A DNA stretch of 29,804 bases, from positions 1 to 29,804 of IMG/VR virus record IMGVR_UViG_3300048924_000239, one strand, 5' to 3'. Numbering within the stretch: position 1 is the first letter of the stretch; each line of letters begins with the position of its first letter. Position numbers and translations under genes: made by a program. Under the pieces are notes generated by a model. That model saw only the letters and a list, made by a program, of their open reading frames with translations. It did not search any database and had not been told where the DNA came from. This document shows, piece by piece, positions 2,311 through 21,138 of this stretch. This DNA comes from a virus.

Positions 2311-2340
2311 CACAAAAAAACCCGCTTTTGGCGGGCTTTT
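2311..2340. terminator. Bidirectional intrinsic terminator between tRNA fragment and integrase
   Basis: CCCGC at 2321-2325 pairs with GCGGG at 2331-2335 around a 5-base loop. A run of seven A lies on one side and four T on the other, so both strands give a GC hairpin followed by U. On the minus strand it sits just past the tRNA 3' end, as host tRNA terminators do. It would separate late-operon or tRNA transcription from the integrase, which must then have its own promoter close to its start. Confidence 0.75.
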
Positions 2341-2347
2341 CTGCGAA

Positions 2348-2411
<64 letters not shown>

Positions 2412-4118: not shown

Positions 4119-7100
4119 CTAGTTCGTTGCCGCGCCTCCCACTTCAGCTCGGATCCGAGGCGCCAGCTTCCTGTTGAGCTGGATCCCGTTCTCGGCTTGT
4201 ACCGACTGCTGGGCGCGCCGGCGCAGGGAGGACTGCAGGTTCCCCATGCCGATCGAGATCTCCGGATACTTCTGGTTGAAGGCCCGGATCTTTGCCAGCG
4301 ACTCCGTCCGCTGCCCGCTGTCGCCGCTGTTGGTCGCCATGGCGAACGCATTCATGAGCGACTGGCGGCGATCCTGCACAGACTGCTGGTAACCCATCAT
4401 CGCGCTGTTGATGCGCTGCTGCTCCGCGATCTTCGTGGGCTGGAAGCCCAACGCCTGGATCAGCTTCTCCGGACCGGACACGTCCGGAACGATGGGATCG
4501 CCACGCAGGTTGTTCACACCCTCCTTGGCGAAGCGAACCGACTTCATCGCGTTCTTGATGAAGGTCGGCATCATCGTCTCGACACCTCGCTCCGTGTGGC
4601 CCTGGCTGACCATGTTCGAGCCGACAAACAGGTTCTTCGTCAGCCCGCCGATCGGGCCGGCCATGGATTCCAGGAACTGGTCGTAGGCCGGGCCGCCCTC
4701 GAGCTGCCGATCGGGCTCACGGAACCACAGGTCGCTGGTACCGACGCGCCCAGAGATATTCGCACCGAGCTGGTCGACGACGCCGTCGGCGATCACCGAC
4801 GCAGCGGTCTTTCCAAGGTGATCGCTGAGCCAGGCGCGGAACTCCGTATTGAAGTCCCACGGCGTGTCGTCGTCGCCCGTGGCAGCGTGGTACGCATTCG
4901 CGCCGGCGGACAGAAGGTTGTTGATGGGCGTGCCCATGATGCCGGCGAACAGGCTGGTCATACCCAGCACGCCTGTCAGCGTTCGACGGGCCACGCGGCG
5001 AACTTCCGGCGTTTCGCCTCTGAGCGACTGCTCGAGGTTTCGATAGAGCACCCAGCTCATGCCCAGGGCGTAGTTCTTGAACTGGAACAGGACCTTCTGC
5101 ACGTTGCCCTGCATCCACCGGGACCGGTTCGCATTCGAGTAGTCGAAGTGCGTGCCGTTCACGATCTCGTCGGCGTACTTGATCGCTTCGTTGAAGCTCT
5201 TCCCATCCTTCGTGGCCAGGCGGAACGCGGCGATGCCGGCGGACTCTCGGTTGATCACCTCGGCCTTCTGGAACATGTAGCCCATCGCCGTCATGACTTT
5301 GGCGTAGGCCGGGTTCATCTTGAGCGCGTCGCCCTCGGCGATGCCTCCCAGGCTGTGGGTCGCCGTACGCGCAAACGTACCGTTCGCCTCGAGCGTGTCG
5401 AAGGCCCGACGTTCGTCGTCCGTGGTCAGCACCTTGCGGATGTTGCCAAACGTACGCATGGCATCCCGGGTAGCGGATCCCATCTCGCGCATCGCAGCCG
5501 GCCAGCCGTGGCGTGCGCCAAGGACCGGTAGCGTGACCATTGCCCCCTGCGAGAGATTGACCAGGGCGGACGCCGGCGAGGCGCTGAGGTAGTAGGCAAA
5601 CCCGACCGAGTTGATCATGGTCGCTAGCTTCGAGTTGGTCGGGTTCATGATCCACTGGTGGCGCTTGGCCAACTCACCGACCAGCGCGTCGGCGTGCGCG
5701 GCTTGGCCAACACCCATCAGCGGCCGATTACCTTCCACCGTCGCCCGCATGTGTTCCATGGAGTCCTCCAGCTGGTATCCGTAACGGGCCCGGGCGATCT
5801 GGTGGGCGCCGTGGAGGACGTTGCTGGCGAAGATCCGCGGCACGTTGTCGGTGTAGCCGGCCACGTTGCTGCGGTGGATCCCGCTCTTGCGCAGAGACAA
5901 CTCCGGCAGCGTCCGCAGGAACATCTGGTGAATGTCGTCCAGGACTTTGTCCGGCGCGCCGCCCTGCCGCAGCATGCCCGTCAGCTGGCCCATGAAGGTG
6001 CCGGTTACGGGCTTCTGGGTCTCGTAGTCCTTATTCTGCCGTCCGGTCGCTTCGATGGTGTGGCCAGCCGCCTGCAATTGCTTCTCGGCACGCTGCGCTT
6101 TGTAGGCATCCTCGTACTTCGTGAAGTGGTACTCGCCGCCCTCCCCGTCTTCGCCAGGCAGGCGCGAGGCGATCCAGTAGTCGCCGAAGCGCGCCAACGG
6201 GAAGTACACGCCGCCGACCTTGTTGTCGGCGAAGTTGGTGCGGACCATTTCCGCGGCCGCGCGCTTGTTCTGCTCGGGGATATCCAGAGCCTGGATGCGC
6301 GCCAGCGTCGCCTCCTCGAGGCGCTCGGACGTCTCGCGGTAGTGGTCGCGCATCATGGTGAACATCTCTTTCGCCTTGGGCGACAGGGCGTTCCACTTGG
6401 CGACCTGCTCCGGGTACTTCAGCTCGCGCGCCTTCTCGCGCGCCGGCAGCTTCCGGAGATCCTTGATCTGGTCGAGGAGCGCCGTCTTGTCGTCGCCGGC
6501 ACGGCCACGCATCTGCTCCTGCAGCGTCTTGATCCGCTGCTTGCGAAGATCTTCGGTCCATGGCGTTTGCTCGCCGCGGTCATCCCGCATGAGCAGCCGC
6601 TCATAGTCGCTCGTCGGGTCGACGGTGACTTGAGTGACCTCATGCATGAACTTGAACAGGCTCTTGGCCTCGTCCGTGAGCTTGCCCGCCCAGCCAGCCG
6701 GGCCGTGCTCGAACGACCACTTGTTCAGCCGGTCCGCCTTGGCGGCACCCTCCATCGTCATGGTGTTGCGATCGGCATCCATGCGCTGGAAGGTGTCAGC
6801 GTAGAAATCAGCGTGCCGCTTTAGCACCTTCGTATCGCTGGCCAGTTCCAGCACGTGACGTAGCTGCAGTGCACCCAGAAGATGCGGCTCGGCATCCAGC
6901 AACTTGCCCTTCGCCCATTCCTTCGCACGCTGGAACGCGCCATCGTCGAGCTTGGGCATGACCTCGTTCATCGACTCGATCGAGGCGGAGGCTTTGCTGA
7001 AGGGTCGACGCGTGGTGCCTGGCTCTTCGCGTTCGCCGCGGTCGTCCAGGGAAAAGTCAGAGCGGGGCTTCGGCGGCCCGTCCTTTACTGGGCCGGCTTC

Positions 7101-10100
7101 TTCCCGCCCGCCGGGCCCAGGTGCTGGAGCTCCGGATCGATCGCCAGCTGCTCCCTCGCCCACTTCGCGGAGGCCTGGGATTCGGCGCGCAAGGACTCTA
7201 TCTCGGAGGGCGTCAGGCGATAGCCTGCCTCCGTCGTAGGTGAGGATGGTTCGGGCTTCGGATTCGGTGAGGCCGTCGAAGCCATGGCCGAACTTCCGAC
7301 GCCACCAACCTTCGATGCGGCTGAAGCGGTCACGTACGTTGCCAAGAGTGGTGGGATCCAGGGCAAGCTTGCGCGAGTACTCCTTGCCGGTCAAGGACGT
7401 AGCCAGCACCACGTTGCCGCCTTCACGCTCAATGTGGGTCTTCAGCTGCGCCAGGGTCCCGCCCTGAGTGAGGGTATCGTCCAAAAGGACATAGTCCTTA
7501 CCGGGCGTCACCTTGCCCTCGAACGTGGGCTGGTTGGCCAACCGGTGCATCGCATCTCCAGCACCGCGCCCGACCTTTTCGGCCTGGATCATCCCGTGGT
7601 CGACCTCGAGGCCGAGCCGCTTGCCCAGCACCTCCGCAGCCATGACCGGGATCCGGTTGTTTCCCGTCGCCTCCCTGGCCACCACCGGCACGATCGTGGG
7701 CTCGCTCCCTTCCGGGATCGCTGCCTTCACGCGGTCAGCGAAGTCCTTCGTCACGGTGTCTCGCGCCAGACGGAGTGCAGCCGCATCGTCGCCCGCCTTG
7801 GCAGCCGCGTAGTCCGGGTGTTCGCGGACGGTCCCGAGCTTGTGGCCGAGGACAACGTCGGGGAAGTCCTCGGACCAACCGTCGCGAGAGAACGACATCG
7901 TCGACTGGCGCTCGACGCGCTCCTCGTACGATTCGCCACGTTCCAGGTACTCGCTCGAGCGCGCCAACAGCTGACGAAGCTCCGCAGGAAGCAGCTTTAG
8001 GTTCGGCATGATCCGGCGAAGGAACGCCTGGACCGCGCTGACGACACGGTCGATCAGCCCATTGCGCACCCCACGTTCTGCCATGACGGCGATCGTCTCG
8101 CGAGCGAACGTGGCACTGTCGACATCGCCATATCGCCGACGAACCTCGCCCAGGATGTCCTGCATCTGCTTGCCGCCGGCGCCGTCCTTTTCGAGACGCA
8201 GCACGGAGGTCTCGATCTTCTTCCAGGCATCGGCGCCGAGCTCGCGATTCACCACGCGATCGATACCGAAGTGGCCAACGGCTTCGTGCGCCAGCGTGCG
8301 CGAGAGGCTCGCGCGGCCGGCAGCGTCATCGGCATGGGCGCTCGCCACCAGCCAAATGGTCTTGCCGTCGTGGAATCCACTGGCCCGCTTGTAGCTCGGA
8401 TCCGGCTCTCCGGTGACGGGGTCGACCTTCGCCGAATGCGGCAGTTGTTCTGGCGTGGCCACCACTTCGACGTTGGGGATGTCGTCGCCGTGCCAAGCCT
8501 TCGTCGCTTCCCTGGCCACCTCAGTCATGCGCTCAGCATGTTCGTTCTGCGCCGGCGTGGCCGCGTCGCCCTCCGAGCGTGACCCGGCGCCGTCCCGGAA
8601 GCGAACGATCTGCTCGCTTCGTGGAACGTCCTGCGTCTCGGTTGGCGGCGTGTTCCTGCGGTCCTCCGCCGTCATGTCCAGCCGACGCTGCGTGTCACGC
8701 GCCTCGACTTCGCCCGCGAGACGTCGGTACTTCTCGGACGCGGCGCTGCGCACGCTCTCCTCAGACTGCAGGCGAGCGCCGTTAAGCTCGTCGTCGACCC
8801 TTCGGCGCTCGACCTCGAGGCTCTGAACGCGCGCGGTATCTCCAACCTCCTGCGCGTTCTTCTGCATCTGCTCGATCGTCTCCTTGCGAGACAGCAGGGC
8901 TTCACGCTGGCGCAGGAGTGGCTCTGCGAACTCCGCCGAGCTTCCGCCCCTGGCGAAGCCCTCCCTCTCTTGGATGGCGTGCTGGAGCTCGTGCAACAGC
9001 ACCGACTTGAACGAGCGATTCCCGGTCTTCGGATAGTCCCCCGGCGGGCGCATCATTACCTGGTTGCGGTTGGGATCGTATGCGCCCCAATGCGTCATCT
9101 CACCATTGATCTTGAGTGGCACCTTAGCCAATTCGGGGTATGCCCTGAAGAGATCCGGGTGATTGAGCACGTCGCCCACCGTCGCGGTCGCCGCCTTTGC
9201 GGCTGCGGCTGTGCTGGCGCGGGTTGCTTCAGTCGCGGCAGCATTTCCTTCCTGGTCGCCCGCGGTTCGTGCTGCCAGCGCCCTGTCGCTCGCTTCTGTA
9301 GCCTCGCGAAGGTGTGTTGCTTCATCGGCGATCGACGAGTTCACGGTCGCTTTGCTGTCGTCGATCTCGAAGCGCCACTTGCCGTCAGCGCCCCTGTGCC
9401 AGCCGGTCTCAGCGTGCGTGTCTTCTACGGAGCCCATTCGATGGCCAAAGCGATCCGGGACGGTGTCGAAGCCCTCGCGCTCACGGTCGCGGGCGCGATC
9501 GAGGGCATCGTGGTCGGCCGTACGCGCGGACTCGCCGGCGAAGCTGAAGTCCCTCGCGACGGCTGCTTTCCTTGTCTTTGGCTGCGTCGCTTCTTTCGCC
9601 GCCACCTCCGGCTTGCCAAGGACCGCGCGAAGATCCCTCGATGTCGGCGCTGTGGAATGCGTCCGTTGCTCACCCTGACGCGCCGGAAGCTCCGAGCCGT
9701 CGTCACGAACCGAGTGAACAGTGACATTCCACCGACCGTCATTCCAGTTGAAGGCATCGATTTTCTGCTTTCCGGCATAGCCAGGCCGGACCTCGCCAGG
9801 CTTGAAGTACGCCTCGAGCGTCTCCCTCGCATGCGGCACGTACTCCAGCTTTCCGCCGGCGACGCGCACGCGAGCACCGTTCGTGGCGATGCCGCCGCGA
9901 CGAGCTGCAACTGCTGGCGCCTTCGGTACCGGCGGAGGTACCGCTGCGGCGGGCTTCTCCGTCTTCGCCGGCATCACCGGTGCCTCCACCGCCGGGCTCT
10001 TCGTATCTCCATCCTTGAGCCAGGCCTTGAACTGGTCCATGGTGAAGTCCCGCACCGGGCCGACCTTCCAGCCCTTGTCGAAGTTGCTCCGGTAGGCAGT

Positions 10101-13100
10101 GAGAGCATCGCGCTTGCTGGCGAAGCCCATCATCGCCTTGTGCTCGTCGAACTTTCCCGTGTCCTGGTGGATCTGGTCGACGACGAACACGCGGCGCGCT
10201 TCAGGCTTCGGCCCAACGTATACGTCGACGTGATCGCCATCGGCACCGACCGTGCCGCGCACGTAGCCGTAGTGGTCGCTCATCGTGTGGGACCAGGGCT
10301 TCCCGCCTGCGTCGACACCGCTACGTACAGATCCGCGTGGATTCTCGATGCTGACGTCTAGGCCGTGGATCTGCACGTGGCCCTTCTTGTAGTTGCCGGC
10401 TTCTTTCTGTGCCACCGTGGGTTCGGGGCGATCGTTGTGTGGCGAGGTAGCAGCCTCTGCAGCAGCGACATCGACGGGATGTTCCGGGGCTGCCTCCGCA
10501 CGTGCTGCGATCGGCTTTGCCGCCGGCGCATTGGTAGACTCGGTGCCGGCGGCGTTGCGTTCGTTGCGCGCCGTCGCATCCCTCACCGCAACACGTGCGT
10601 TCGCGATCGCCTCCTGCGCGTAAGGAAGGATCCCTGCAGGGAGCGGCGTCTTCTCGCCGGCGTCGTTCACGAGCCGATGAACCATCTTGTCGCCCGCGCG
10701 CTGGCTCTCGACGCGGGTGAACCCGTCTGCCACGCGACTGTCGACAAACCGCTTACCGGTCATCTCACCGTCAGTCGTCTTTACGCGCACGCCGTCAGCA
10801 CGCTTCGCCGCGGCCGTCGGCTCCGGAATCACCGCACGGGTGCCAGCTGCATCACCCCGTTCCAAGGCCGTCGCAGGCACTCGGGCAGGCGCCTCTGGAA
10901 CGCGATCCGCTGCATTTGTTCCGCTTTCTGGCTCTTTTGTTCCGGCTTCGACCGGTTTTGTTCCACTTTGCGGCGGATTTGTTCCATCCTCGCCATCGCT
11001 CGACGCCACCGAGGTAGGCGCCACGTTCTCTTGAATCGGTGCGTCGTTGCTATCTGCGGCGGGAGGTGCGCCAGCTCCATCCGGCTGGTCGGTCGCGTCG
11101 GCACGAGGCTGGGACTCGGCGGCTACACCCCCTGCGTCAACAGAATCGGGCGGCGTGTCAACGCTTCCCTGGGTTTCGTCAACGCTACCGGCTGGTTTGT
11201 CACCACTCGGCGTCGCCTCCACGTCAGCGGATGCAGCCGAAGGCTTTTCACCCAGTGCAGCGGACAGGCGGTCGCGCGACGCATCGAGGCCAGCATTCAT
11301 ATCGCGCTCGATGTCGTCGAACGATCGTTGCGGATCCTGGCCAGCTTCCTTTCCTGCGCCAGCACGCGCGTCCATCTCGGCGTCGAATCCAGGGTCTGCA
11401 GCGGTGGACGCGGCCTGCGGTTCGGCTGCTGCCCGCTCGCTCGCAGCGATCGCGTCCAGCGCCTGCCGTTGTGCAGGCTGGCGCGCACGTCTCACGTCGC
11501 CAGCGTCGACGCCCCATGCCTGCGCGAGCGCATTGGTGTTGATGCGGAGGTGGCCGGCCGCATCGTATTGAGCCTGCATCTGTTGGGCGACAGCACCGAC
11601 CAGGTCATCCTTGGTAGGCACGCCGACTTCGCCCGTCTCGGGGTTCACCCACGGTGGAATGATCGGATCGATCGGTCCCGGCGTCGTGCTGGCGGAGCCG
11701 GGCGATGTCGGTCGCGTATCCGCGGCGACAGGGACAGGTGAGGTCTCCTCGGATACTGGGGCCCGCTCGGCGCGGGCCAATGCCGGCGCGACGCGATCAC
11801 CGTCTGCCGACGCCGCGCGTGTAAGGGTGGCCGCCTCGGTGAGTGAGCCAGGCGTGGGACGATGAAGGCCGCCCACGCCGCCGAATACAGCACCAGGCAG
11901 CGCACCGGCGCCGAATGTCGCTAGCGAGTCCGCCAGCGGATCCCGATTCTCACCCGTCGCACTGTTGGACGCCGCGGTCTGAGCGGCACTCTGACCGACC
12001 GCGATAGCGCCTTGGACTGGCGCCTCAAGTGCCGCACCGGCGCCAGCACGGCGCAATGCGCTCTCGCCGACTACCTTGGCCAACGTGCCTTGCGCCTCGT
12101 GCAGTAACGGTGCCGTGGTGATGGCGCCCGCGGCGGTGGCCACCGGCAACGTCGTGGCGAACACACGACTGCGCACCTGGTCGGCTAGCGCACTGCGCGC
12201 ATCCTCCGGCTTCATCCCGCGTGCAATCATCGAGCTATACGCCGGCAGCTTCTGCAGGTCGGCATCCGACATCTGCTGAACACGCTGAGACTCGCCCTGG
12301 GCCGCGTCTTCCGCGCCCTGCACACCGCCGGTAACCGCGCCAGCGGCAACCGATGCACGACCGCTACGAGTGAGTGCAGCCTGGGCGATCTGCTGCGCCT
12401 CCGGTGCCAGTTCGGCGACCTTGCCCGCCCGTACGGCGGCGAGGATATCGGCGGTCATTCCCGGAGCACGCGATAGGGCCCTCGCGGCAGTCGCTTCGCT
12501 GCCCAGCAACATGGGCGCCAGGTTGCCGACCATGTCGGCGCCCTTCAGCGTCCAGTTCATCGGAGACGATGCGCCTTCGCCGAAGCTCCAGGTCTTAGGG
12601 TCAAGCAGCTTGCCCTCAACCAGCGGAGCCTCTTGCGCCGCCTTGGCCTTGTCGCTTTCGGTACCCTTGATCCAGTCACCCGCTTTCTCGATTGGCGACC
12701 CGATGAGGTCGCCGACCGCTGTTCCAGGGCGCTTGATCCACTGGGGTGTGTCGTCGCTCATAAGCGAGCGCGAGATAATGCTCGTCGGGTTGAGCGTGTC
12801 GGAGGCCTCGCCCACGCCGCGTAGCGTTGCGCCGACGCCATGGACGACGCCACCTACGAGCGCTTTCGGGATGTCCAGCAGCCCGTAGCCGTCGTCCTTC
12901 GGCGCGGGCTTCGGCGTGTCGGCCGCCGGCGCGTCGTAGGAGAAGCCGGCCGGTGCCGCGGGACGCGTGAGAACGCTCGGACCTGCCGGCGCCGACGATG
13001 CCATGGCGGTGGGCGTCGGCCGCGTCAACGTCGGCGTGGCCGCTGGCGCATTGGGCGTGACAGCTGCCGCGGGTGCCGGGTCGTCGTCGTGCTGGTAGTC

Positions 13101-13145
13101 GAACCCCGGCGGCGGTGCCGGGCGCGCAGCATTCAGTCCATCCAT
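4119..13145 (-). CDS. Giant phage polyvalent protein (pyrophosphatase-like, zincin, PRTase and LPD38-like regions)
   Basis: This 3,008-residue protein is probably packaged and ejected with the DNA. Regions in order are: a Pro/Ala-rich start; Ala/Gly-rich hydrophobic stretches (about 75-430) able to enter membrane; a disordered acidic linker with heptapeptide repeats (about 440-880); an inorganic-pyrophosphatase-like domain (NYKKGHV at 918, GDHVDVYVGP, ending near 1046); a zincin-like LPD23-type region with HELQH at 1385-1389 and GEVEAR near 1479; a second zincin-like region with HEAVGHFG at 1620; a phosphoribosyltransferase motif (VLLDDTLTQGGT, Asp1889-Asp1890); and a long conserved C-terminus (about 2080-3008) resembling LPD38. 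This mix matches the polyvalent proteins described by Iyer and colleagues, thought to act on the host at entry. I place the start at 13145, where ATG overlaps the preceding TAA and GGAGGG lies seven bases upstream. No lysozyme or transglycosylase motif is visible. Confidence 0.9.
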   Translation of the reverse strand: MDGLNAARPAPPPGFDYQHDDDPAPAAAVTPNAPAATPTLTRPTPTAMASSAPAGPSVLTRPAAPAGFSYDAPAADTPKPAPKDDGYGLLDIPKALVGGVVHGVGATLRGVGEASDTLNPTSIISRSLMSDDTPQWIKRPGTAVGDLIGSPIEKAGDWIKGTESDKAKAAQEAPLVEGKLLDPKTWSFGEGASSPMNWTLKGADMVGNLAPMLLGSEATAARALSRAPGMTADILAAVRAGKVAELAPEAQQIAQAALTRSGRASVAAGAVTGGVQGAEDAAQGESQRVQQMSDADLQKLPAYSSMIARGMKPEDARSALADQVRSRVFATTLPVATAAGAITTAPLLHEAQGTLAKVVGESALRRAGAGAALEAPVQGAIAVGQSAAQTAASNSATGENRDPLADSLATFGAGALPGAVFGGVGGLHRPTPGSLTEAATLTRAASADGDRVAPALARAERAPVSEETSPVPVAADTRPTSPGSASTTPGPIDPIIPPWVNPETGEVGVPTKDDLVGAVAQQMQAQYDAAGHLRINTNALAQAWGVDAGDVRRARQPAQRQALDAIAASERAAAEPQAASTAADPGFDAEMDARAGAGKEAGQDPQRSFDDIERDMNAGLDASRDRLSAALGEKPSAASADVEATPSGDKPAGSVDETQGSVDTPPDSVDAGGVAAESQPRADATDQPDGAGAPPAADSNDAPIQENVAPTSVASSDGEDGTNPPQSGTKPVEAGTKEPESGTNAADRVPEAPARVPATALERGDAAGTRAVIPEPTAAAKRADGVRVKTTDGEMTGKRFVDSRVADGFTRVESQRAGDKMVHRLVNDAGEKTPLPAGILPYAQEAIANARVAVRDATARNERNAAGTESTNAPAAKPIAARAEAAPEHPVDVAAAEAATSPHNDRPEPTVAQKEAGNYKKGHVQIHGLDVSIENPRGSVRSGVDAGGKPWSHTMSDHYGYVRGTVGADGDHVDVYVGPKPEARRVFVVDQIHQDTGKFDEHKAMMGFASKRDALTAYRSNFDKGWKVGPVRDFTMDQFKAWLKDGDTKSPAVEAPVMPAKTEKPAAAVPPPVPKAPAVAARRGGIATNGARVRVAGGKLEYVPHARETLEAYFKPGEVRPGYAGKQKIDAFNWNDGRWNVTVHSVRDDGSELPARQGEQRTHSTAPTSRDLRAVLGKPEVAAKEATQPKTRKAAVARDFSFAGESARTADHDALDRARDREREGFDTVPDRFGHRMGSVEDTHAETGWHRGADGKWRFEIDDSKATVNSSIADEATHLREATEASDRALAARTAGDQEGNAAATEATRASTAAAAKAATATVGDVLNHPDLFRAYPELAKVPLKINGEMTHWGAYDPNRNQVMMRPPGDYPKTGNRSFKSVLLHELQHAIQEREGFARGGSSAEFAEPLLRQREALLSRKETIEQMQKNAQEVGDTARVQSLEVERRRVDDELNGARLQSEESVRSAASEKYRRLAGEVEARDTQRRLDMTAEDRRNTPPTETQDVPRSEQIVRFRDGAGSRSEGDAATPAQNEHAERMTEVAREATKAWHGDDIPNVEVVATPEQLPHSAKVDPVTGEPDPSYKRASGFHDGKTIWLVASAHADDAAGRASLSRTLAHEAVGHFGIDRVVNRELGADAWKKIETSVLRLEKDGAGGKQMQDILGEVRRRYGDVDSATFARETIAVMAERGVRNGLIDRVVSAVQAFLRRIMPNLKLLPAELRQLLARSSEYLERGESYEERVERQSTMSFSRDGWSEDFPDVVLGHKLGTVREHPDYAAAKAGDDAAALRLARDTVTKDFADRVKAAIPEGSEPTIVPVVAREATGNNRIPVMAAEVLGKRLGLEVDHGMIQAEKVGRGAGDAMHRLANQPTFEGKVTPGKDYVLLDDTLTQGGTLAQLKTHIEREGGNVVLATSLTGKEYSRKLALDPTTLGNVRDRFSRIEGWWRRKFGHGFDGLTESEARTILTYDGGRLSPDALRDRVLARRIPGLREVGEGAAGDRSGAPAPGPGGREEAGPVKDGPPKPRSDFSLDDRGEREEPGTTRRPFSKASASIESMNEVMPKLDDGAFQRAKEWAKGKLLDAEPHLLGALQLRHVLELASDTKVLKRHADFYADTFQRMDADRNTMTMEGAAKADRLNKWSFEHGPAGWAGKLTDEAKSLFKFMHEVTQVTVDPTSDYERLLMRDDRGEQTPWTEDLRKQRIKTLQEQMRGRAGDDKTALLDQIKDLRKLPAREKARELKYPEQVAKWNALSPKAKEMFTMMRDHYRETSERLEEATLARIQALDIPEQNKRAAAEMVRTNFADNKVGGVYFPLARFGDYWIASRLPGEDGEGGEYHFTKYEDAYKAQRAEKQLQAAGHTIEATGRQNKDYETQKPVTGTFMGQLTGMLRQGGAPDKVLDDIHQMFLRTLPELSLRKSGIHRSNVAGYTDNVPRIFASNVLHGAHQIARARYGYQLEDSMEHMRATVEGNRPLMGVGQAAHADALVGELAKRHQWIMNPTNSKLATMINSVGFAYYLSASPASALVNLSQGAMVTLPVLGARHGWPAAMREMGSATRDAMRTFGNIRKVLTTDDERRAFDTLEANGTFARTATHSLGGIAEGDALKMNPAYAKVMTAMGYMFQKAEVINRESAGIAAFRLATKDGKSFNEAIKYADEIVNGTHFDYSNANRSRWMQGNVQKVLFQFKNYALGMSWVLYRNLEQSLRGETPEVRRVARRTLTGVLGMTSLFAGIMGTPINNLLSAGANAYHAATGDDDTPWDFNTEFRAWLSDHLGKTAASVIADGVVDQLGANISGRVGTSDLWFREPDRQLEGGPAYDQFLESMAGPIGGLTKNLFVGSNMVSQGHTERGVETMMPTFIKNAMKSVRFAKEGVNNLRGDPIVPDVSGPEKLIQALGFQPTKIAEQQRINSAMMGYQQSVQDRRQSLMNAFAMATNSGDSGQRTESLAKIRAFNQKYPEISIGMGNLQSSLRRRAQQSVQAENGIQLNRKLAPRIRAEVGGAATN
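10915..10985 (-). repeat. Four-copy 21-bp periodic repeat inside the polyvalent gene
   Basis: TTTGTTCC occurs at 10915, 10936, 10957 and 10978, exactly 21 bp apart. It encodes Gly-Thr-Asn/Lys at the head of each heptapeptide (GTNPPQS, GTKPVEA, GTKEPES, GTNAADR). The rest of each unit has diverged. It sits in the disordered linker before the pyrophosphatase-like domain. Confidence 0.75.
11136..11183 (-). repeat. Three-copy 21-bp periodic repeat inside the polyvalent gene
   Basis: GTCAAC occurs at 11136, 11157 and 11178, again 21 bp apart. It encodes Ser-Val-Asp at the start of heptapeptides GSVDETQ, GSVDTPP and DSVDAGG. It has the same period as the neighbouring GT repeat but an unrelated motif. 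Confidence 0.7.
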
Positions 13146-14737
13146 TACAGCGCCCTCCACGACCCGTTGAGAAAGACCATCTGCTCGCCCGACTTCTGGT
13201 TGGTTACCAGTGGCAAACCGATCGCTCGCGCCTGCAGGCCGCGCCAGTCAGCGATCTGCTTGGGGCTGACTGGCGTGCGCTCGGCTTCCGGTAGGAGTGC
13301 CTGGGCTTTGGTGTGCTCTTCCATCTGCGACTGGACGCCCTTGCCCAACTGGTCGAGTAGGTCGTTCTCGCGACGGGTGCCCCAATCGTCGCGGGTAATG
13401 GCCGTGCGCGCGGGCGTGCCGTCCGGGAGGCGCGTGGGCGTGACCACTCCGTTCCCACCGATCTGAGCGATGGTCCCGTCTGCAAGCGTGGTCTGCGGAA
13501 GCTGCCGCGTGAGGACGGCGCGCGCCGTCTCCAGTGCGCCCTGCTGCAGACCGTACTGTCCGCGTAGGTTTTCAAGATCGAGTGCGCCAGCACGCTGGGC
13601 CGCACTATTGGCGGCCTCGTTGTCGCCAGCGGCTGCCTGCTCACCCGCACGCAGACTGCCGGCGAGCTGCGCTCCGAGAGCGCCAGCTGCAGCGCGACGA
13701 AGACGCGGCGTGCCTGCGTACTCAACATCCTTCTGCAGGTTGCTGGCCACGGTGCCTGCGGAACTCCGCCAGTCACCGCTGGCGATCGCGTCGCGGTCGG
13801 AAGCGGCGAACTGCGCCGCACTCGGTCGGCTACCCGTGACGGGCACGGCCGTCGGCTGGCGCAGGGTTGCCGCCTGCTCCGAGGTGGGCGTATATCCGAG
13901 GACGTCGCTGGCCAACGGGGCCTTAGGAGCGGGAGCCGTTTGCAGCCGTGCCCCGAGGCCCTTGATGGTCTCGTCAGTCATCGTGCGGGGGATGCTCCCT
14001 GCGACGCCGGGAATCCCGCTGCTGCCGTCGCTGAAGGTCGGTACGCCATTGACCATCGCTCCGTACGGAAGACGCTTGCCGTCGACGGCAAGCGCACCTC
14101 CGTATACATCGCTCGGGAGGTCACCCTTCGAAGTGCCAAGCGCCGAACCCGACACGCCTGCCAGCGATGGCCGCTGTAGCGTCGCGCTCGCTACGCTCGG
14201 ATCCACAGGGCCGCGGGCAGGCGCGGTGGTATCGACGCTACCCGCAACGCCGGCGAACGATGCATTGGCTCCGCCTGCGCCGGCGGTGGTACCGGGTCCC
14301 CCGAAGGGCCTCGACAGAGGCGCAGCCGAAACGCCCGGGAGCGGGTTGCCCGAGTCCGGCGCTTCCGGGTTTCCGGCAATGCCGTTGTAGACGTCGCGCG
14401 CGATAGGCGCGCCATATCGGACAGGCGACGTGATGGCGTTGACGATACCGGTACCGACGTTGCGGCCGGAGTTCAGCAGGTCAACACCCCCGTTGATGAC
14501 GTCGCGACCCTCGCCGCCAATGGCGCGACCGACACGCGTTCCCACCGACGCGTCGGCCAGCGCGCCGATCGAGCGGGCGTCTGACGCCTGGGCGCCGCCG
14601 AATACCAAGGGCGCTCGCGTAAGCGTGGGTGCCGCCGCATCTGTTGGCACCGCGGGCCCGGGCGGCACACTGGCGCCGGCGGTGACGTCGTCGTCGGTCA
14701 GAGGGCTGGGACGGCGGAGGAGCGAGGTCGTGGCCAT
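13145..14737 (-). CDS. Ala/Gly-rich virion-associated protein, possibly ejected
   Basis: This 530-residue protein, of unrecognised family, is rich in Ala, Gly, Pro, Ser and Thr. Residues 1-180 look extended, with a GRAIGGEGRDVINGGVDLLNS segment that resembles the amphipathic Gly/Ala stretches of the giant protein. The middle is low-complexity, and a helical part (about 340-500) contains DLENLRGQYGLQQGALETAR. Its stop TAA overlaps the ATG of the polyvalent gene, and it follows the coiled-coil gene by 14 bases, so the three are probably made together. A partner or internal core protein of the polyvalent factor is my inference. The N-terminal style (PTLTRAPLVF, SLLRRPSPL) recurs in the polyvalent protein's first 60 residues (PTLTRPTPT, VLTRPAAPA), perhaps a shared packaging signal. 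The ribosome-binding site is weak (GGGA). Confidence 0.75.
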   Translation of the reverse strand: MATTSLLRRPSPLTDDDVTAGASVPPGPAVPTDAAAPTLTRAPLVFGGAQASDARSIGALADASVGTRVGRAIGGEGRDVINGGVDLLNSGRNVGTGIVNAITSPVRYGAPIARDVYNGIAGNPEAPDSGNPLPGVSAAPLSRPFGGPGTTAGAGGANASFAGVAGSVDTTAPARGPVDPSVASATLQRPSLAGVSGSALGTSKGDLPSDVYGGALAVDGKRLPYGAMVNGVPTFSDGSSGIPGVAGSIPRTMTDETIKGLGARLQTAPAPKAPLASDVLGYTPTSEQAATLRQPTAVPVTGSRPSAAQFAASDRDAIASGDWRSSAGTVASNLQKDVEYAGTPRLRRAAAGALGAQLAGSLRAGEQAAAGDNEAANSAAQRAGALDLENLRGQYGLQQGALETARAVLTRQLPQTTLADGTIAQIGGNGVVTPTRLPDGTPARTAITRDDWGTRRENDLLDQLGKGVQSQMEEHTKAQALLPEAERTPVSPKQIADWRGLQARAIGLPLVTNQKSGEQMVFLNGSWRAL

Positions 14738-14751: not shown

Positions 14752-16680
14752 TCAGGAGGAGGAAGAATCGTCGTCGTTGCTGTTGAGCGAATTGCTGACG
14801 CTGTAGCTGTTGCTGGCGCTGAGGCTGGCGCTGCCGCTCCCGGAGATCGAGGCAGCGACATGCGTCGCGCTCATGGCACCGGCCGCAAGCTGGCTGGCCA
14901 TGCCGCCGGCCGCTTGAATCGCACCCAGAAGGATCCGGGCCTGCTCGATCATTCGCTGCATGCGTGAGTCGAACTGACGCGAGAGCACCTCGAAGTACGC
15001 CACGTTGTTCCGGGCGTTGGCCTCGGTCGCGCGCACGGCCACCTCACCCTTCTGCGCTTCGAAGTTAGCCTGCGCGGAATAGCGACCGGTATCTGCTGCA
15101 AAGGTCGAAACGGACGCCTGCAGCTGGGACACACCAGCCTGCACGCGCTCGCGCTCCGCCTGCAGGAGGCCGAGGAACTTCGATGTACCAGTCTCGATCG
15201 CGCGCAGCCGTGCCTGCACGGTCTGAATCTTCACGTTGTTGCCGGTCTCGTAGGCCTGCACCGTGGATGCGAACGCGCGGGCTTCCGCCTCGAGGATGTT
15301 GGCCTTCGACGACTCGCCGGCCACCTGGGTGGCGTAGGCATCGAAGCGGGTCTTCTCCGCGGTGATCTTCTCGGACCAGGCCTGCACGTCGACGCGGTAC
15401 ATGTCGATCTTGCCGCGCTCGAGGTCGGCCGCGACCCGGACTGCGTCGACCTTCGCCTTGAAGATCTCGACGGTGGTGCTGAGCGCCTGCAGGCGGGCGG
15501 TGTAGATCCGCACGGTCGCCTCGTTCACACCACTCTTCAGCTGCTCGGCTTCAATCTCCGCCTTGAAGATCTCCAGCTTTGACAGCTCCGCCTGGACCTT
15601 TGTCTGAAACACACGCACCAACGTGTCGACCGACTGCATCTGTGCGTTGAAGCCGGCCACACGGAGGTTGTAGCGATCGAACTCAACCTGCACACGCTGC
15701 CGCGCCAGCTCGAAGCTGCGGCGCGCCATGTTGTCAAACTGGTTGATCAGCACCGTCTCCAGGGCGATGCCTTGCTGCACGGCCTGGCGAAGGTTCTCGA
15801 TCTGCCACTCGGCCGCCTTGGTAAAGACGTCACGACTGAGCGAATTGACCGCCAGTTGATTCGCCTCGCGTACGGCGTTGACCTGTGCCACGAGCATGCC
15901 TGGGGGCATCGAGAAGCCGCGGCCGGCGTAATCGTCGAAGGCATCCTGCGTCGCCTTGTGCGCGGTCATGTCCTCGCGCTCGCGCGCGGCACCGAATAGC
16001 GCGTTCTGGACGATCGTGGGCATGGCGAAGTCGCCTGCCAGCATGGCGCGAACCGTCGTGGCCACGTCGTTGAGGACGGTAGGGCTGTAGGTCGGCTCCG
16101 CCCAGTCCAGCCCGAGAGCCGGTACCGGATCATCGAACGTCGGCACGAGCGCGTCGAACGTCGGCAACGTGATCGTGGGCCGGTCCGGAATATCGATCGT
16201 CAGCAGTTGATCGACCGCCGGCATTGTCGTGTCCGGCGCGTCCGGCAGCACGACCGCGGCGATGTCCGGCCGCTCAGGGGCGCCGGAATAGTCGATCGGC
16301 GCGGGCGCATCTGGGATGTTGATCGAGATGATGCTCGGATCCCACGTCGGGGGCGCATCCGTACCGATCCCATCGATGAGGGACTGGAAGTCCTCGAACG
16401 CCGGCGCGATGAAGTCCGGCACCCGGCCGAAGAGCTGAGCACTGGGTAACGTGACGTCACCGATATCGCCGCCGGTGACGACCAGAGGCTTGAGGTCAGG
16501 CGGGGTCCCCTCCTGCGGCATCTGCACGTTCGCAAGCTTCGTCAGCTCGTCGTACGTGGTGTTCAGCGCAGTGTCCGCGCGCGCGTTCATCTGCGCGACC
16601 TGGTCCTGCACGATGCTGTACGGCCGGTCGTAAACGTCCGATGGAATGCTGACGATAGGGATGAGTACTGGGTCGGCCAT
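14752..16680 (-). CDS. Long coiled-coil virion protein with Ser-rich tail
   Basis: This is a 642-residue protein. Residues 1-70 are helical, about 70-210 are Pro/Asp-rich and extended (repeated IPDAP/LPDAP motifs), and about 220-590 are almost entirely helical with heptad character and many Ala, Glu, Gln and Arg. A short Ala/Gly hydrophobic patch (AAGGMASQLAAGAM) follows. The last 36 residues are almost only Ser, Asn, Ala and Asp and end in DDDSSSS. The start at 16680 is ATG overlapping the upstream TAA, with GGAGAG in place; an in-frame start farther upstream would overlap the previous gene. The helical rod suggests an internal core, hub or tail-length role, but there is no tape-measure family match I can claim. 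Confidence 0.8.
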   Translation of the reverse strand: MADPVLIPIVSIPSDVYDRPYSIVQDQVAQMNARADTALNTTYDELTKLANVQMPQEGTPPDLKPLVVTGGDIGDVTLPSAQLFGRVPDFIAPAFEDFQSLIDGIGTDAPPTWDPSIISINIPDAPAPIDYSGAPERPDIAAVVLPDAPDTTMPAVDQLLTIDIPDRPTITLPTFDALVPTFDDPVPALGLDWAEPTYSPTVLNDVATTVRAMLAGDFAMPTIVQNALFGAAREREDMTAHKATQDAFDDYAGRGFSMPPGMLVAQVNAVREANQLAVNSLSRDVFTKAAEWQIENLRQAVQQGIALETVLINQFDNMARRSFELARQRVQVEFDRYNLRVAGFNAQMQSVDTLVRVFQTKVQAELSKLEIFKAEIEAEQLKSGVNEATVRIYTARLQALSTTVEIFKAKVDAVRVAADLERGKIDMYRVDVQAWSEKITAEKTRFDAYATQVAGESSKANILEAEARAFASTVQAYETGNNVKIQTVQARLRAIETGTSKFLGLLQAERERVQAGVSQLQASVSTFAADTGRYSAQANFEAQKGEVAVRATEANARNNVAYFEVLSRQFDSRMQRMIEQARILLGAIQAAGGMASQLAAGAMSATHVAASISGSGSASLSASNSYSVSNSLNSNDDDSSSS

Positions 16681-17840
16681 TACACTCTCCGGGAACCTTG
16701 GTCGATGGCCCACAAGAGGCTGCCCGCCGTGCGGAAGTCAGCGCCCTCCAGGTTGAATATCTCGAACTGCCACATGAGCGACTTCACGCCGCGGCCGTAC
16801 TTCACGCGCATCGGGCCGAGCTCGTCGTTGCGACGCTCCTCGAACGTGTACGTATGGGCATGCCGCTGGCCACCAGCGGTGTCGAACACGCGGGCGCCCA
16901 TGAGGCCATCGGTTTTCATGGTGCCGTAGAGGTAGCCGCCGCGGCGCAAGCTGGCCTCCGGGCCACCAGAACGCTGGTCCGTGAGGAGTGAGGCATCGAT
17001 CGCGACACCGGCGTCGTCCGCACCGTCGATGGCGTAGAGACCCGCCGGGCCCGCCCCGTAAAGGCTTCCATCGATCGCCGCAAGCGAGTTGAGGTCGAAG
17101 CCGCTGTAGCGGCTTCCGGCCCAGGTGTCGGTGTTAGCGGTCCATGCGCCGCCGCCAGCGGGAAGGAGCGCGAGATCTTCGATGACGAGCTCGTCGCGAA
17201 CGATCACGACGCTGTGCAGTGCCACCGCAGCGGAGTCACGGACACGCAGGGCGTCGGCGACTAGGATCTGCTTGCTGCCTTCCAGAATCGGCCCGTCAGA
17301 AACTGTGAGCGCATCGCCGAGGGTAAACGAACGTCCGAAGGTGTATCCGTCGCCGGCCCGAAGTGCGTCGCGAGCCGCGAGTGAGACAGCGACGGTCGCG
17401 CGGTCCCTCACGGTCAACGCATCGCGCGCAGCAAGGGTGATGTTGACCTGCGGTTGTGCGGCGCTGGTTACCCTCAGCCGGTCAGAAGCGACCATACCAA
17501 GGACGACGGTCACGGCATCTGACACGACGAGCGAGTCCACGACTGTCTCGTTGAAACCCATAGATGCCCGATCGCGGACAACGAGGGCGTCGGCGGCCGC
17601 GGCACGCATGGTCAACGTTACGTCTGCGGCTGATGCCACTTGCAACGCGTCGGCCGCGCCGATCGTCACCTGGAAGGTGGCACCATCACTCACCCGCAGG
17701 GTGTCACCCACCGACATCGCGCGGTTGAACACGAAGCCATCCGAGGCTTGCAGATGGTCGGCTACGACAATGGAGAAGCCGAGGGACGCCGCATCGCTGA
17801 CGTGCAGCTGGTCCTCGATCACGATGCATTGATCAGCCAT
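16680..17840 (-). CDS. Tail protein with about twelve 18-residue repeats
   Basis: This is a 386-residue protein. The first 225 or so residues are about twelve units of 18-20 residues with the pattern x-x-D-x-L-x-V-x-D-x-A, for example VADALRVRDSAAV, VVDSLVVSDAVTV and GDALTVSDGP. The alternation of hydrophobic and turn residues and the constant Asp/Leu/Val positions suggest a beta-solenoid or similar stacked structure. The last 160 residues are non-repetitive and end in a well-formed domain (MRVKYGRGVKSLMWQFEIFN). It overlaps the preceding gene by eight bases and the next by one (TAATG). A structural or fibre-like role is likely, but the exact place in the tail is unknown. Confidence 0.8.
   Translation of the reverse strand: MADQCIVIEDQLHVSDAASLGFSIVVADHLQASDGFVFNRAMSVGDTLRVSDGATFQVTIGAADALQVASAADVTLTMRAAAADALVVRDRASMGFNETVVDSLVVSDAVTVVLGMVASDRLRVTSAAQPQVNITLAARDALTVRDRATVAVSLAARDALRAGDGYTFGRSFTLGDALTVSDGPILEGSKQILVADALRVRDSAAVALHSVVIVRDELVIEDLALLPAGGGAWTANTDTWAGSRYSGFDLNSLAAIDGSLYGAGPAGLYAIDGADDAGVAIDASLLTDQRSGGPEASLRRGGYLYGTMKTDGLMGARVFDTAGGQRHAHTYTFEERRNDELGPMRVKYGRGVKSLMWQFEIFNLEGADFRTAGSLLWAIDQGSRRV
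17125..17840 (-). repeat. Diverged about 54-bp coding repeats (tail repeat protein)
   Basis: This DNA encodes the run of 18-20 residue units in the tail repeat protein. Copies are diverged at nucleotide level but keep GAC/GAT for the two Asp positions and GCG/CTC-rich words such as GACGCGCTG around them. About twelve units can be read. Confidence 0.65.
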
Positions 17841-20409
17841 TGATCACCCCGATGTAGGTGAGGAATCCGGTTTCCATGCCGGGCCATTGCGGACCGCCGA
17901 CGATTGCCAGCCCACCGTTGAGGTTCGTGCTGTAACGGGCAACAGAGCCGGTGCCACAGGCATTTGCGGTGCTCTCGATGTATTGGTTCGAGCTCTCACC
18001 GTCGCCGCTGTCGGGCGATGGAATGCTCCACTCACCGAACGAGAGGCTGTTCACAGCAGCGGTGCGAACGGCGCCAAAGCCGTTCGAACTGATCAAATAG
18101 ACGTCGTAGTGGCCTGTCGGTCCGGTTTGCTCGTTGACGGGTGCCGGCAGCGGAGGCGGCGGGATCGAGTAGAGCTTCGCGTCGATGTTGTCGCCGCCGA
18201 AGGCCCACGGCCCAGAGTCCGCGATGTCGCGGCACGGGCCGGAGCTGTCGTACAGAGGCGAGCTGGGATCCGCCGTGCGGTACTCATTCGGCCCGTACCC
18301 ATTGACGTCTTGCAGATGTAGTGGCCGCCACGGGTCGTTGGGCTCGCCGGAGCCGACGTACGTCCCGTAATACCCCGGAAAGTTGCGCTTGTAGGTGCAG
18401 TACCAGGGGTCGGCCAGCTCCTGATAGGCCGAGGACACGGTATGGGCGGTGGCCTGGCTCGACCGTTGCACGGCGTAGAACACGGCCTCGCGGTCGTAGA
18501 ACGGCACCGCAATGCCAGTGCCAAGGCTAGGCGACGTCACGGATCGGATGTCCGTGGTCAGCCGAAACCGCTTGATCCGGGCGGCAGATCCCCGGGAAGG
18601 ATTCACGATATCGTCGTTCGCCTCGATCCTGCAGTAGCCGAGGTCGATGCCTTTGATCGATGCGTCCAGCGTGGAACCCGCAAGCTCGGCGCGATCGTCC
18701 AGGTCGTTGGTGTAGAACATCGGCGGGACCGCGACCGAGCCACCATCCGCGTGCTGCGACCACTGGCCGATGTACATGCACGCCTCGAAGTTATCCGTCG
18801 AACCGCCGGGAATCGACCCAGAGTCACGGAAGAACTTCACCCACTTGAGCTCGTCGCCGGCGAAGAACACATGCACCGTCGTGTCACAGCGCTTCGGCTC
18901 GGCGGCCGTCTCGCTTGCCGGCTTCATGCTGTGCGCGACCAGGAGACCGAGAGAGGCGTCGGGCCACCGAGCAACGGTACCGGTCTCGATCTTGGCCCGG
19001 GGTGGGTACCACAGTGTGCCCTCGCTGACCGACGACAGATGACCTGACGCCGGCGCCAAAGGGTCAAGCACCAGGCCGTCGACGTAGGTGAGTGCGTCGG
19101 CGGTGCCGTACCGGGCCAGCTCGCCGACAGCGTGATCAAGCTGGTCCGCGTCGAGACGCGCAAGCTTCCAGATGGCAGCGTCCCGAATTTCCGTCGACGA
19201 GGACGTGCGGAAGGCTCGTGCCAGCGCGTCCAGCGCGCCAGCTGGCTTCACCTGGCGCACGGCTCCAATGCTGATCGGAATCATGAAGTGGACGCCACGC
19301 TGCACGTCGTCGTCGCCGTAACGCCATGCCGTGTTATGCGCCTCATCCCCCTGACGGTTGAATGCCCAGCCCATCGACTGGCTGTAAGCGGTGTGCGCAT
19401 AGAAGGGCTGAAGGTCGTCGTGCGCCACCAGGCGCAGGATCCGCCCTGCCCGGATCCACGCCGGCAGTTGCTCGGACGGCGGAAAGGCTTCGCCAGTTGG
19501 GAACCCGCCGAACTGGTCGAGAAGGGTCAGGCCGTCGACATCATCGGCTTTTTCCAGGCGCTGCCGGAACGCGGCCGTTGTGGTCTCTGGGTGCACCGGC
19601 AACGGCATCGCGATGACGCCCTGGGTGATCCCGATCTCGACGAGCCACAACTGTCCGTCGGCGCCGCGAGCGATGCCGTGGGTTCGGGTGAAGTGCCAGT
19701 CGTAGCGGATCTGAAGACCCGCCTTCAGGATCTGCTTGTCGTACGCTGTCAACGGCTGGACGCGCGGCTGATTCCTATGCTTCGGCGGTTCGTCGTAGAC
19801 GCTGAACGAATGACCCTTTCGCAGCGTGCTGCGCGCGAAGCCCATGAGTGCCTGAACCAGCGTCCGCATGGTCCCGGAGTACATCGTCGGCTTCAGCCGG
19901 GTGTACTGGGAGTACACCCGCGTGCCGTTTTCTTGCTGATTGGCCAGGTCGCCGGCGAACACGCTGTATGGTTCGACCGCCAGCCGTCGGACCGGCTGAT
20001 AGTTTGCAGAGAGGCCATACCGCTTAGCGCAGCTCATCGTTGGATGAAAGGTGGCCAGAGTCTTGTAGGCGGCGATCGGCGGATCGGCCGGGACGTCCTG
20101 GATGAAGCCATTCTGCACGGCACCCGACAAGAAGTCGGGGATGCCGACCGGCGTGGCGATATCCTCGAGGAGCGTCTCGTCCCCGTCACCGACGACGATG
20201 TGCACCGCATTGATTCCACCGGCGAGGCTGACGTACGCGTACGCGCCGTCGTCGAACCGTTCCTGGGCGGAAAGCTGGGCCAGATGCCCCAGGCGCCGAC
20301 GTTCCTGTGTCTTCCGAAGTAGCGCCAGCGCCGCGGGCACATACAGTTGCCCGCGGCGCTGATCGCCGGTCACGGAGATACGAGCGACATCGTCGTCCGG
20401 CGTCCGCAT
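17833..20409 (-). CDS. Large phage structural protein of unknown function
   Basis: This 858-residue protein has no signal peptide or membrane segment. The N-terminal 60 residues are basic and helical (LRKTQERRRLGHLAQLSAQ). The body is rich in aromatic residues and Gly with mixed strands, as in tail baseplate, nozzle or fibre-associated proteins. The centre (about 390-460) has a helical stretch (DALARAFRTSSSTEIRDAAIWKLARL). The C-terminal 150 residues hold several Cys and a Pro run (PPPPLPAPV) before a Gly/Ser/Asn-rich end. One base separates its ATG from the upstream stop, and its end overlaps the next start by eight bases. I do not recognise a named family; its position makes it a virion protein. 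Confidence 0.75.
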   Translation of the reverse strand: MRTPDDDVARISVTGDQRRGQLYVPAALALLRKTQERRRLGHLAQLSAQERFDDGAYAYVSLAGGINAVHIVVGDGDETLLEDIATPVGIPDFLSGAVQNGFIQDVPADPPIAAYKTLATFHPTMSCAKRYGLSANYQPVRRLAVEPYSVFAGDLANQQENGTRVYSQYTRLKPTMYSGTMRTLVQALMGFARSTLRKGHSFSVYDEPPKHRNQPRVQPLTAYDKQILKAGLQIRYDWHFTRTHGIARGADGQLWLVEIGITQGVIAMPLPVHPETTTAAFRQRLEKADDVDGLTLLDQFGGFPTGEAFPPSEQLPAWIRAGRILRLVAHDDLQPFYAHTAYSQSMGWAFNRQGDEAHNTAWRYGDDDVQRGVHFMIPISIGAVRQVKPAGALDALARAFRTSSSTEIRDAAIWKLARLDADQLDHAVGELARYGTADALTYVDGLVLDPLAPASGHLSSVSEGTLWYPPRAKIETGTVARWPDASLGLLVAHSMKPASETAAEPKRCDTTVHVFFAGDELKWVKFFRDSGSIPGGSTDNFEACMYIGQWSQHADGGSVAVPPMFYTNDLDDRAELAGSTLDASIKGIDLGYCRIEANDDIVNPSRGSAARIKRFRLTTDIRSVTSPSLGTGIAVPFYDREAVFYAVQRSSQATAHTVSSAYQELADPWYCTYKRNFPGYYGTYVGSGEPNDPWRPLHLQDVNGYGPNEYRTADPSSPLYDSSGPCRDIADSGPWAFGGDNIDAKLYSIPPPPLPAPVNEQTGPTGHYDVYLISSNGFGAVRTAAVNSLSFGEWSIPSPDSGDGESSNQYIESTANACGTGSVARYSTNLNGGLAIVGGPQWPGMETGFLTYIGVING

Positions 20410-20410
20410 G

Positions 20411-21046
20411 TCAGTCGGTCAGGCTGACCTGGTAGCCGAGCGTGATCGTCTCGCCATTGAACGCAGTACGCGCGTTGTCGAACTTCGTGGCCGACATCAA
20501 TACACCGGCAGTGCTCCCGCGCCCGTTATCGCTCAGCAGGCCGCAGCCGGTGACCGTGACGCTGGCTGCGCTGGCGAACGTGAAGGTCGCTTTGTTCGCA
20601 TCACTGGACACCACGCCGGCAACCGGAGCACCGGGCACCCATTGCGGCCTCGTAGCGCTCGTGTAGCCCTCGGAGGTACTGACGATCTCGCCCTGGGTCG
20701 CGGCGAAGCTCGCCGCCGTCAGCCCGTCACCAGGCACGGCAGCGCCGTTGGTGAGGCCAAGATAGAACTTCGGAATCTTGGCCGTATCCGTAAAAGTGAT
20801 GGCCAGAATGGTGGCGATACCTTGGCCCGGGACCAAGTTTGGATCCCAGGTAAAGTCACTCTCGCGTTCATTCAGTCGGTGAAAGTAGCTCCCCGCTGCA
20901 TGGAGTGCGTCGTCGATGATGAGCCCGGCGGCCGTGACCCTGTACTTACCACCCAGGAGGCACTTGGCGAAGTGGAGCCGATAGCGCTCGATCTCGCGAC
21001 TGACGCGGCGCGCGGGGACATGGATGAGCTGGAGTGGGTTGCGCAT
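20411..21046 (-). CDS. Phage structural protein, tail or decoration-like
   Basis: This is a 211-residue protein. About 50 N-terminal residues are basic and helical (RRVSREIERYRLHFAKCLLGG), followed by a beta-rich domain (ITFTDTAKIPKFYLGLT to the end). The arrangement 'fylgLtn … insert … Ftf … NnG … L' resembles the 137-residue protein at 28148-28561, and I infer a shared fold. I choose the ATG at 21046: GAGGAAGG stands six bases upstream, while the earlier in-frame start would put a 10-bp inverted repeat inside the gene. That repeat (21047-21084 area) can pair across the ribosome-binding site and start codon, which could hold translation down. The TGA stop lies one base before the next ATG. 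Confidence 0.75.
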   Translation of the reverse strand: MRNPLQLIHVPARRVSREIERYRLHFAKCLLGGKYRVTAAGLIIDDALHAAGSYFHRLNERESDFTWDPNLVPGQGIATILAITFTDTAKIPKFYLGLTNGAAVPGDGLTAASFAATQGEIVSTSEGYTSATRPQWVPGAPVAGVVSSDANKATFTFASAASVTVTGCGLLSDNGRGSTAGVLMSATKFDNARTAFNGETITLGYQVSLTD

Positions 21047-21138
21047 GAGTGCCTTCCTCGTGAGGATGAAGGGCACTCATGCGCCACGTGACGTAGTACG
21101 CCGCACTAGGCGGCGGTTTGTCCGCTACGTGAGTGTAG
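21047..21138 (-). promoter_or_regulatory. Three stacked hairpins between nozzle-like gene and 211-residue gene
   Basis: Read on the minus strand, CCGCTAC/GTAGCGG (7 bp) spans the upstream stop codon, CGCCGC/GCGGCG (6 bp) follows, and CATGAGTGCC/GGCACTCATG (10 bp) encloses the ribosome-binding site and start of the next gene. No U-run follows the first two. The segment includes GGCGCATGAGTGCC, which recurs before the gene starting at 28561. It may set the ratio of two virion proteins or mark a processing or promoter site. Confidence 0.5.

Follow-up and report, generated by a model that had tools for sequence, protein, structure and literature searches.

A giant phage protein with an N4-like N-terminal module and pyrophosphatase-like, zincin-like, and phosphoribosyltransferase domains

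Results

Genes and features of the locus

The window, which is the whole stretch of DNA that we analyzed, is a complete IMG/VR record of 29,804 bases, and a near-identity DNA search in phage records left it unmatched. On its minus strand lies a giant gene whose coordinates and length of 3,008 residues had been given correctly in a first-pass annotation; across the same interval, 4119-13145, the plus strand is interrupted by stops. An in-frame GTG at 13160 extends the gene to 4119..13160 (minus strand) and the protein to 3,013 aa. Residue numbers below follow the 3,013-aa frame, from which those of the first-pass annotation differ by minus 5. The features are as follows.

853-2376, minus strand: integrase, adjoining a tRNA piece at 2348-2415
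3168-3962, minus strand: D12-type DNA adenine methyltransferase, flanked by attP and the giant gene
4119..13145, minus strand: giant polyvalent/ejection-type protein (ATG 13145, stop 4119, 3,008 aa)
4146..6923, minus strand: C-terminal LPD39/PLxRFG module, residues 2080-3005 (Pfam LPD39, 6e-16)
7197..7898, minus strand: phosphoribosyltransferase (PRTase) domain, residues 1755-1988, with the PRPP loop D1894-D1895-TLTQGGT1902 (profile and structure matches)
7956..8480, minus strand: second zincin-like domain, HExxxH type (HEAVGH 1625-1630, distal E1688; motif conservation, model, and profiles)
8598..9206, minus strand: first zincin-like domain (HELQH 1390-1394; distal GE-VEAR, E1484/E1486; conservation among relatives and profile matches)
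9339..9548, minus strand: LPD23 domain, residues 1205-1274 (Pfam 1e-15)
10014..10412, minus strand: InPase domain (PF18823), residues 917-1049 (Pfam E 5.8e-56)
11841..12890, minus strand: N-terminal, putative delivery module, about residues 91-440 (recurrence and homology to the N4 NTD)
13145..14737, minus strand: upstream late gene, 530 aa (position of H66 gp59; beside the giant gene in relatives L003 and L092)
14752..16713, minus strand: upstream late gene, 653 aa (orthologue of H66 gp58, 41%)
16680..25341, minus strand: upstream structural genes
21125-22390, minus strand: head closure Hc3, within the block collinear with H66

The upstream genes follow the order of Pseudomonas phage H66: 21125-22390, 20411-21076, 17833-20409, 16680-17840, and 14752-16713 are collinear orthologues of its gp54-gp58, and the place of gp60 is taken by the giant gene. 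The H66 record annotates gp60 as an MS-verified virion part, an annotation note that is known from the record only; the AH14a paper (PMC4936722) contains no virion evidence for such a protein. The 530-aa protein (13145..14737) is a candidate second ejection protein. Both this gene and 14752-16713 were tried as relatives of N4 gp51 and were rejected (0.5% and 0.6%, respectively). The product of 16680-17840, the H66 gp57 orthologue, has an N-terminal half made of repeated units of the type ADALxVxDxA.

The 68 bp at 2348-2415 agree at every position with the 3' part of tRNA-Ser(CGA) in Pseudoxanthomonas gei, where the gene is complete, and a 56-base pattern inside this piece is also exact in Arenimonas oryziterrae and in a Pseudoxanthomonas MAG. 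The tRNA piece and the adjacent integrase gene mark this as an attP, and hence the phage as temperate, with hosts that are probably Lysobacteraceae. The phage is probably short-tailed (H66/F116-like). The integrase ORF start reads through the tRNA piece, such that the true start probably lies further in. In L003 and L004, which are close relatives, different genes occupy the position of the methyltransferase; the one at L003:16165-16860 has an SRAP/YedK-like start.

Within the giant protein, Pfam reports InPase (917-1049), LPD23 (1205-1274), LPD39 (2080-2321), and a weak PRTase match (0.03). Chance is excluded for the domains because of the E values of InPase (5.8e-56), LPD23 (1e-15), LPD39 (6e-16), and the PRTase profile (7.6e-6), together with dN/dS values of 0.04-0.09. 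As in the polyvalent proteins defined by Iyer et al. 2017 (PMC5512222), unrelated activities (InPase, PRTase-like, zincin-like, and LPD domains) are joined in one chain, the gene sits among late/virion genes, and the PRTase carries its catalytic DD motif. The family is therefore a known one, as the first-pass annotation had said, and the motifs named there are all present (H1390-E-L-Q-H1394, H1625-E-A-V-G-H1630, and D1894-D1895-TLTQGGT).

The N-terminal module is related to the N4 virion RNA polymerase

When the N-module profile was compared with all PDB sequences, the sole match was the N4 virion RNA polymerase (vRNAP), at residues 240-439 (E 1.3e-16). Consistent with this, hhalign gave 97.5% over 172 columns with the N4 vRNAP NTD, against 0.4% for an N4 gp51 control. 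Residues ~238-430 of the giant protein align with N4 residues 264-439. The profile matched none of 200 locally shuffled N4 NTDs, nor the reversed protein, nor other ORFs. Further, a reciprocal single-sequence search from N4 retrieved the same N-terminal region of the relatives (1.6e-14), and the PHROGs vRNAP family phrog_2206 matched residues 156-679 only, by means of its own N-terminal part. The window module is only mildly hydrophobic, as is the N4 NTD, with mildly hydrophobic stretches at matching places in both. Judged by these alignments, the N module (about 91-440) is homologous to the NTD of coliphage N4 vRNAP. No T7-like single-subunit RNA polymerase domain was matched by Pfam in the giant protein.

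The N4 gp50-NTD inserts in nanodiscs, and its proposed role is to hold the ejected protein to the inner membrane (PMC12633501); the homology thereby lends support to the earlier description of a membrane-active-looking N-terminus. The module is N-terminal in 21 of 74 nonredundant giant phage proteins, and its start always falls within the first 12% of the chain. According to Iyer et al. 2017 (PMC5512222), queries with the N-terminal region and the polymerase domain of N4 brought up nothing but the polymerase module of related phages, and relative to that paper the N4-NTD link appears to be new; we found no paper describing it, in a literature search that had little reach into subscription papers.

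The C-terminal module recurs at the extreme C-terminus

The C-terminus had been called LPD38-like, an assignment that Pfam replaces with LPD39 at 2080-2321, LPD38 being unreported up to E 1. The module contains a PLxRFG motif (PLARFGDYW) and occupies the extreme C-terminus in all 18 nonredundant proteins that have it; it is probably needed, we infer, for packaging into the capsid. Both end modules were detected in just 6 of the 74 nonredundant giant proteins at the thresholds used. Against the C2 domain of N4, hhalign gave 0.7%, which is no detectable relation, with a remote similarity being possible. The AlphaFold model of the C module was poor (mean pLDDT 63) and had no usable match in the PDB (best E 0.63), and its BFVD matches were phage proteins of the same kind only. 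Among its PHROGs families is the 'DarB-like antirestriction' phrog_10089; a DarB function was rejected, as the alignment reflects the shared C-terminus.

Conserved catalytic motifs in the central domains

The InPase domain bears the DGDxxD motif of type I inorganic pyrophosphatases (D974-G-D976-H-V-D979), plus D995, D1005/E1006, and K1008. All of these outer positions are conserved, as are D974 and D979, and each of 16 nonredundant relatives retains D974, D979, E1006, and K1008. Moreover, with a ten-relative profile, the stretch HYGY..GT.GADGDHVDV aligns with E. coli Ppa (hhalign 71%; control 0.4%). Among solved structures, the domain also has a match in 9b41 (E 6e-32), where it corresponds to the C-terminal part of a phage portal chain. 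Chain L of this PDB entry is the gp19 portal, the C-terminal part of which is of the same InPase family, and its structure is deposited.

An LPD23 domain, overlooked in the first-pass annotation, precedes the HELQH region. LPD23 and the HExQH domain go together in about 70 loci, and LPD23 nearly always comes first. Among 37 relatives, the invariant residues of the first zincin include H-E-x-Q-H-x-x-Q and a distal G-E-x-E-x-R; 23 of the 37 match the 'putative metallopeptidase' DUF6782 (best 3.5e-10), and there are also matches to Peptidase_M78 (5e-5). The nearest solved chain is IrrE, a weak match (0.22). Standalone LPD23 plus HExQH zincin proteins of ~340-440 aa occur in loci L036-L041, L046-L048, L051, L007, L018, and L024, where their genes adjoin portal, head closure Hc3, tail, and DNA-ejection genes.

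The HEAVGH region is of the HEXXXH type, a zincin MPTase variant described by Iyer et al. 2017 (PMC5512222). Of 25 nonredundant relatives, 23-25 retain its H, E, and H and the distal E; for E1688 the figure is 24. Because a joint MAFFT alignment had set HExxxH fragments on the HExQH column, this domain and the PRTase were folded without the first zincin. In the resulting second-zincin model (mean pLDDT 77, PRTase included), a helix and three short strands precede the motif helix, and E1688 lies on a helix that follows it. This predicted secondary structure is as expected for a zincin core, which offers support rather than proof. The second-zincin profile aligns with the first zincin (44%) and with the HExxH C1 domain of N4 vRNAP (hhalign 60%). 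The matches listed in the fold search included no zincin structures, as PRTase chains filled the listing. The earlier claim of two zincin-like regions thus holds at the level of motifs, HEXXH and HEXXXH each being accompanied by a distal Glu; a zincin fold is a tentative assignment for both regions, and the weaker one for the second.

For the PRTase domain, a profile search of the PDB found adenine PRTases (E 7.6e-6). The best structural match of the model was Helicobacter pylori ComFC (7p0h; Z 12.8, rmsd 3.4, 157 residues), ahead of APRT, which followed at Z 9.3. Single-protein hhalign comparisons ranked E. coli YhgH, the ComFC homologue, first (82.7%), followed by Apt (75.0%), Hpt (29%), and PyrE (18%), the unrelated SlmA control giving 0.2%; the alignments to YhgH and Apt span mainly the PRPP loop. 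The fold that had been proposed is thereby supported. Both nucleotide-metabolism-like domains of the first-pass annotation, InPase and PRTase, hold at the level of sequence. The N-terminal four-cysteine zinc finger of ComFC is not in the domain, there being zero cysteines in residues 1745-1990, and TIGR00201 scored 13 bits against a cut-off of 234. Outside the PRPP loop, before and after the core, H1781, K1788, S1929, R1943, E1950, and E1968 are invariant and likely form, by their conservation, a family-specific substrate site. Single-sequence patterns revealed no relatives of this PRTase in GTDB genomes.

Cargo exchange and selection among relatives

Across 80 PRTase loci, the protein that carries the domain is mostly ~2,900 aa long; the HExxxH zincin is its usual companion, and InPase a frequent one. 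Related domain sets are present in most of these loci. The combination to which the first-pass annotation had drawn attention is not supported as special: InPase, HExxxH zincin, PRTase, and C module recur together in many phages, and InPase is no commoner with the PRTase, since among proteins with the C module it is present in 5 of 11 that contain a PRTase and in 4 of 7 that lack one. The cargo differs among relatives: L092, with 60% identity in the C module, reads InPase-LPD3-zincin-PRTase-ART; L086 reads InPase-LPD5-LPD1-zincin-PBECR2; and L093 reads zincin-ART.

In comparisons with close relatives, dN/dS was 0.04-0.09 in the enzymatic domains and 0.2-0.56 in the linkers, and on these ratios every domain is under purifying selection. 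The catalytic residues of InPase, the HExxxH zincin, and the PRTase are conserved in 16-36 nonredundant relatives, distant ones among them. Synonymous divergence from L003/L004 drops sharply, from ~1.2 to 0.4-0.5, over the block of second zincin and PRTase (window 6984-8570, with linker), which suggests recombination at module borders. The block itself looks recently exchanged between phages.

Discussion

A probable ejected virion protein with exchangeable cargo

The sequence of the window provides the domains, their intact catalytic motifs, purifying selection, synteny with H66, and the N4 homology of the N module. We consider it probable that the giant protein is an ejected virion protein, built as a delivery end, cargo, and a second delivery end, with an N4-type N module and exchangeable enzymes. 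From its sequence, it would very probably be packed in the virion and shot into the host along with the DNA. The 'entry package' of the first-pass annotation accordingly remains the best reading, given (i) the virion annotation of H66 gp60 in a syntenic block and (ii) the N module homologous to the N4 NTD. The N4-like front end suggests a common delivery module whose enzyme cargo can be exchanged, and the giant protein looks like an N4-type ejected protein with the polymerase swapped for other cargo and with a different C-terminal module.

We infer packaging, ejection, and membrane insertion for the window copy, as well as all of the catalytic activities and their targets, along the following lines. 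The LPD39/PLxRFG module would serve capsid packaging, and the N module, common to N4 vRNAP, would insert into the inner membrane, or associate with it, as the protein is ejected. Between these ends, the cargo would comprise an InPase-type pyrophosphatase, the LPD23-coupled HExQH zincin, the HExxxH zincin, and a PRTase nearest to ComFC. After ejection, the chain may be held at the membrane through its N module, where the zincins might cleave host or envelope proteins and/or their own chain, and where PRPP, nucleotides, or pyrophosphate could, at the site of DNA entry, be the substrates of the PRTase and InPase. That host proteins and PRPP, pyrophosphate, or alarmone signals may be the targets is a fair hypothesis. 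Iyer et al. 2017 favor zincin autoprocessing and DNA-entry or nucleotide roles for the PRTase (PMC5512222).

That general logic supports an alternative, to which we give slightly less than even weight, namely that the zincins are processing proteases rather than effectors against host proteins, and divide the 3,008-aa chain into separate active units, whether ahead of packaging, inside the capsid, or once in the cell. P1 DdrB is cut before packaging, and the window zincins sit between other modules, with linkers that evolve fast (dN/dS 0.2-0.56). However, N4 vRNAP, which has an HExxH domain, is packaged uncut, and processing leaves the need for two different zincins per chain unexplained. Further, the standalone LPD23-zincin proteins have no fused cargo to free, which argues that freeing such cargo is not the sole role of the first zincin.

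The PRTase may likewise be ComFC-like in function, binding nucleotides or PRPP and aiding DNA passage or handling at the inner membrane, without acting on host pools or signals. We regard this as possible, with some doubt. Its structural and hhalign preference for ComFC and YhgH over APRT and Apt argues for such a role, as do a ComFC-like arginine noted by Iyer et al. (PMC5512222) and the finding that the T165A mutation in the PRPP loop of ComFC blocks DNA transport into the cytoplasm (PMC9005727). The missing zinc finger, the low TIGR00201 score, and alignments confined mainly to the PRPP loop speak against it. In a broader form, which we put forward only tentatively, the N4 NTD would be a widespread delivery/membrane-anchor module for unrelated cargo (polymerase, pyrophosphatase, proteases, PRTase, ART, and RNase), and the ComFC-like PRTase of the polymerase-less window protein would aid DNA across the inner membrane.

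It is unlikely that InPase and the PRTase are a coupled pair, in which InPase would clear the pyrophosphate that the PRTase makes and so push nucleotide synthesis forward. The window and many relatives have the two domains intact, and the chemistry is consistent with textbook PRTase reactions, but the two show no association among C-module proteins (5/11 vs 4/7), and some PRTase proteins, of 433-558 aa, have no detected InPase (Mcat8). Least probable is that the chain is mainly a structural ejection scaffold with enzymatic domains that are decorative or of small benefit. The delivery modules are indeed the most constant parts and the cargo is freely swapped, yet catalytic residues are conserved throughout 16-36 nonredundant relatives and the cargo evolves at dN/dS of only 0.04-0.09.

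For the reading as an ejected protein with exchangeable cargo, the N4-NTD homology supplies a concrete, testable delivery module for the host entry of polyvalent giant proteins, to which the nanodisc and ejection assays of N4 become applicable. If the module is general, sequence would predict which giant phage proteins are injected, and these proteins could be seen as natural vehicles for swappable enzymes that act during the first minutes of infection.

Comparison with known systems

The giant protein shares with N4 vRNAP gp50 (PMC12633501) its size class (about 3,000-3,500 aa), a homologous N-terminal module, a zincin-like domain, and the position of the last gene of the structural block. 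It differs in having no detected RNA polymerase, a different C-terminal module, and the additional InPase, LPD23, and PRTase, and the genes upstream of it are not detectably gp51. With H66 gp60, a PLxRFG domain protein of the F116 group, it shares the position in a collinear block, for which gp60 has the virion annotation. The two match in the LPD23-zincin region (35-59% identity in pieces) and in the C module (26%), but not in the N module; moreover, gp60 is 3,787 aa long, with a methyltransferase and LPD3, and no InPase, PRTase, or HExxxH zincin was detected in it. ComFC/YhgH has in common with the window PRTase the fold, the PRPP loop, and the best structural match, whereas the latter lacks the zinc finger, has extra conserved segments at its N- and C-terminal sides, and lies within a giant chain. 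The likeness of the giant protein to the polyvalent proteins of Iyer et al. 2017 (PMC5512222) comprises a large multidomain protein in a late-gene block, InPase, zincin-like MPTases of the HEXXH/HEXXXH types, the PRTase DD, and LPDs. The kind of protein is itself known; what goes beyond the literature consulted is an N4-type delivery module on a polymerase-less protein.
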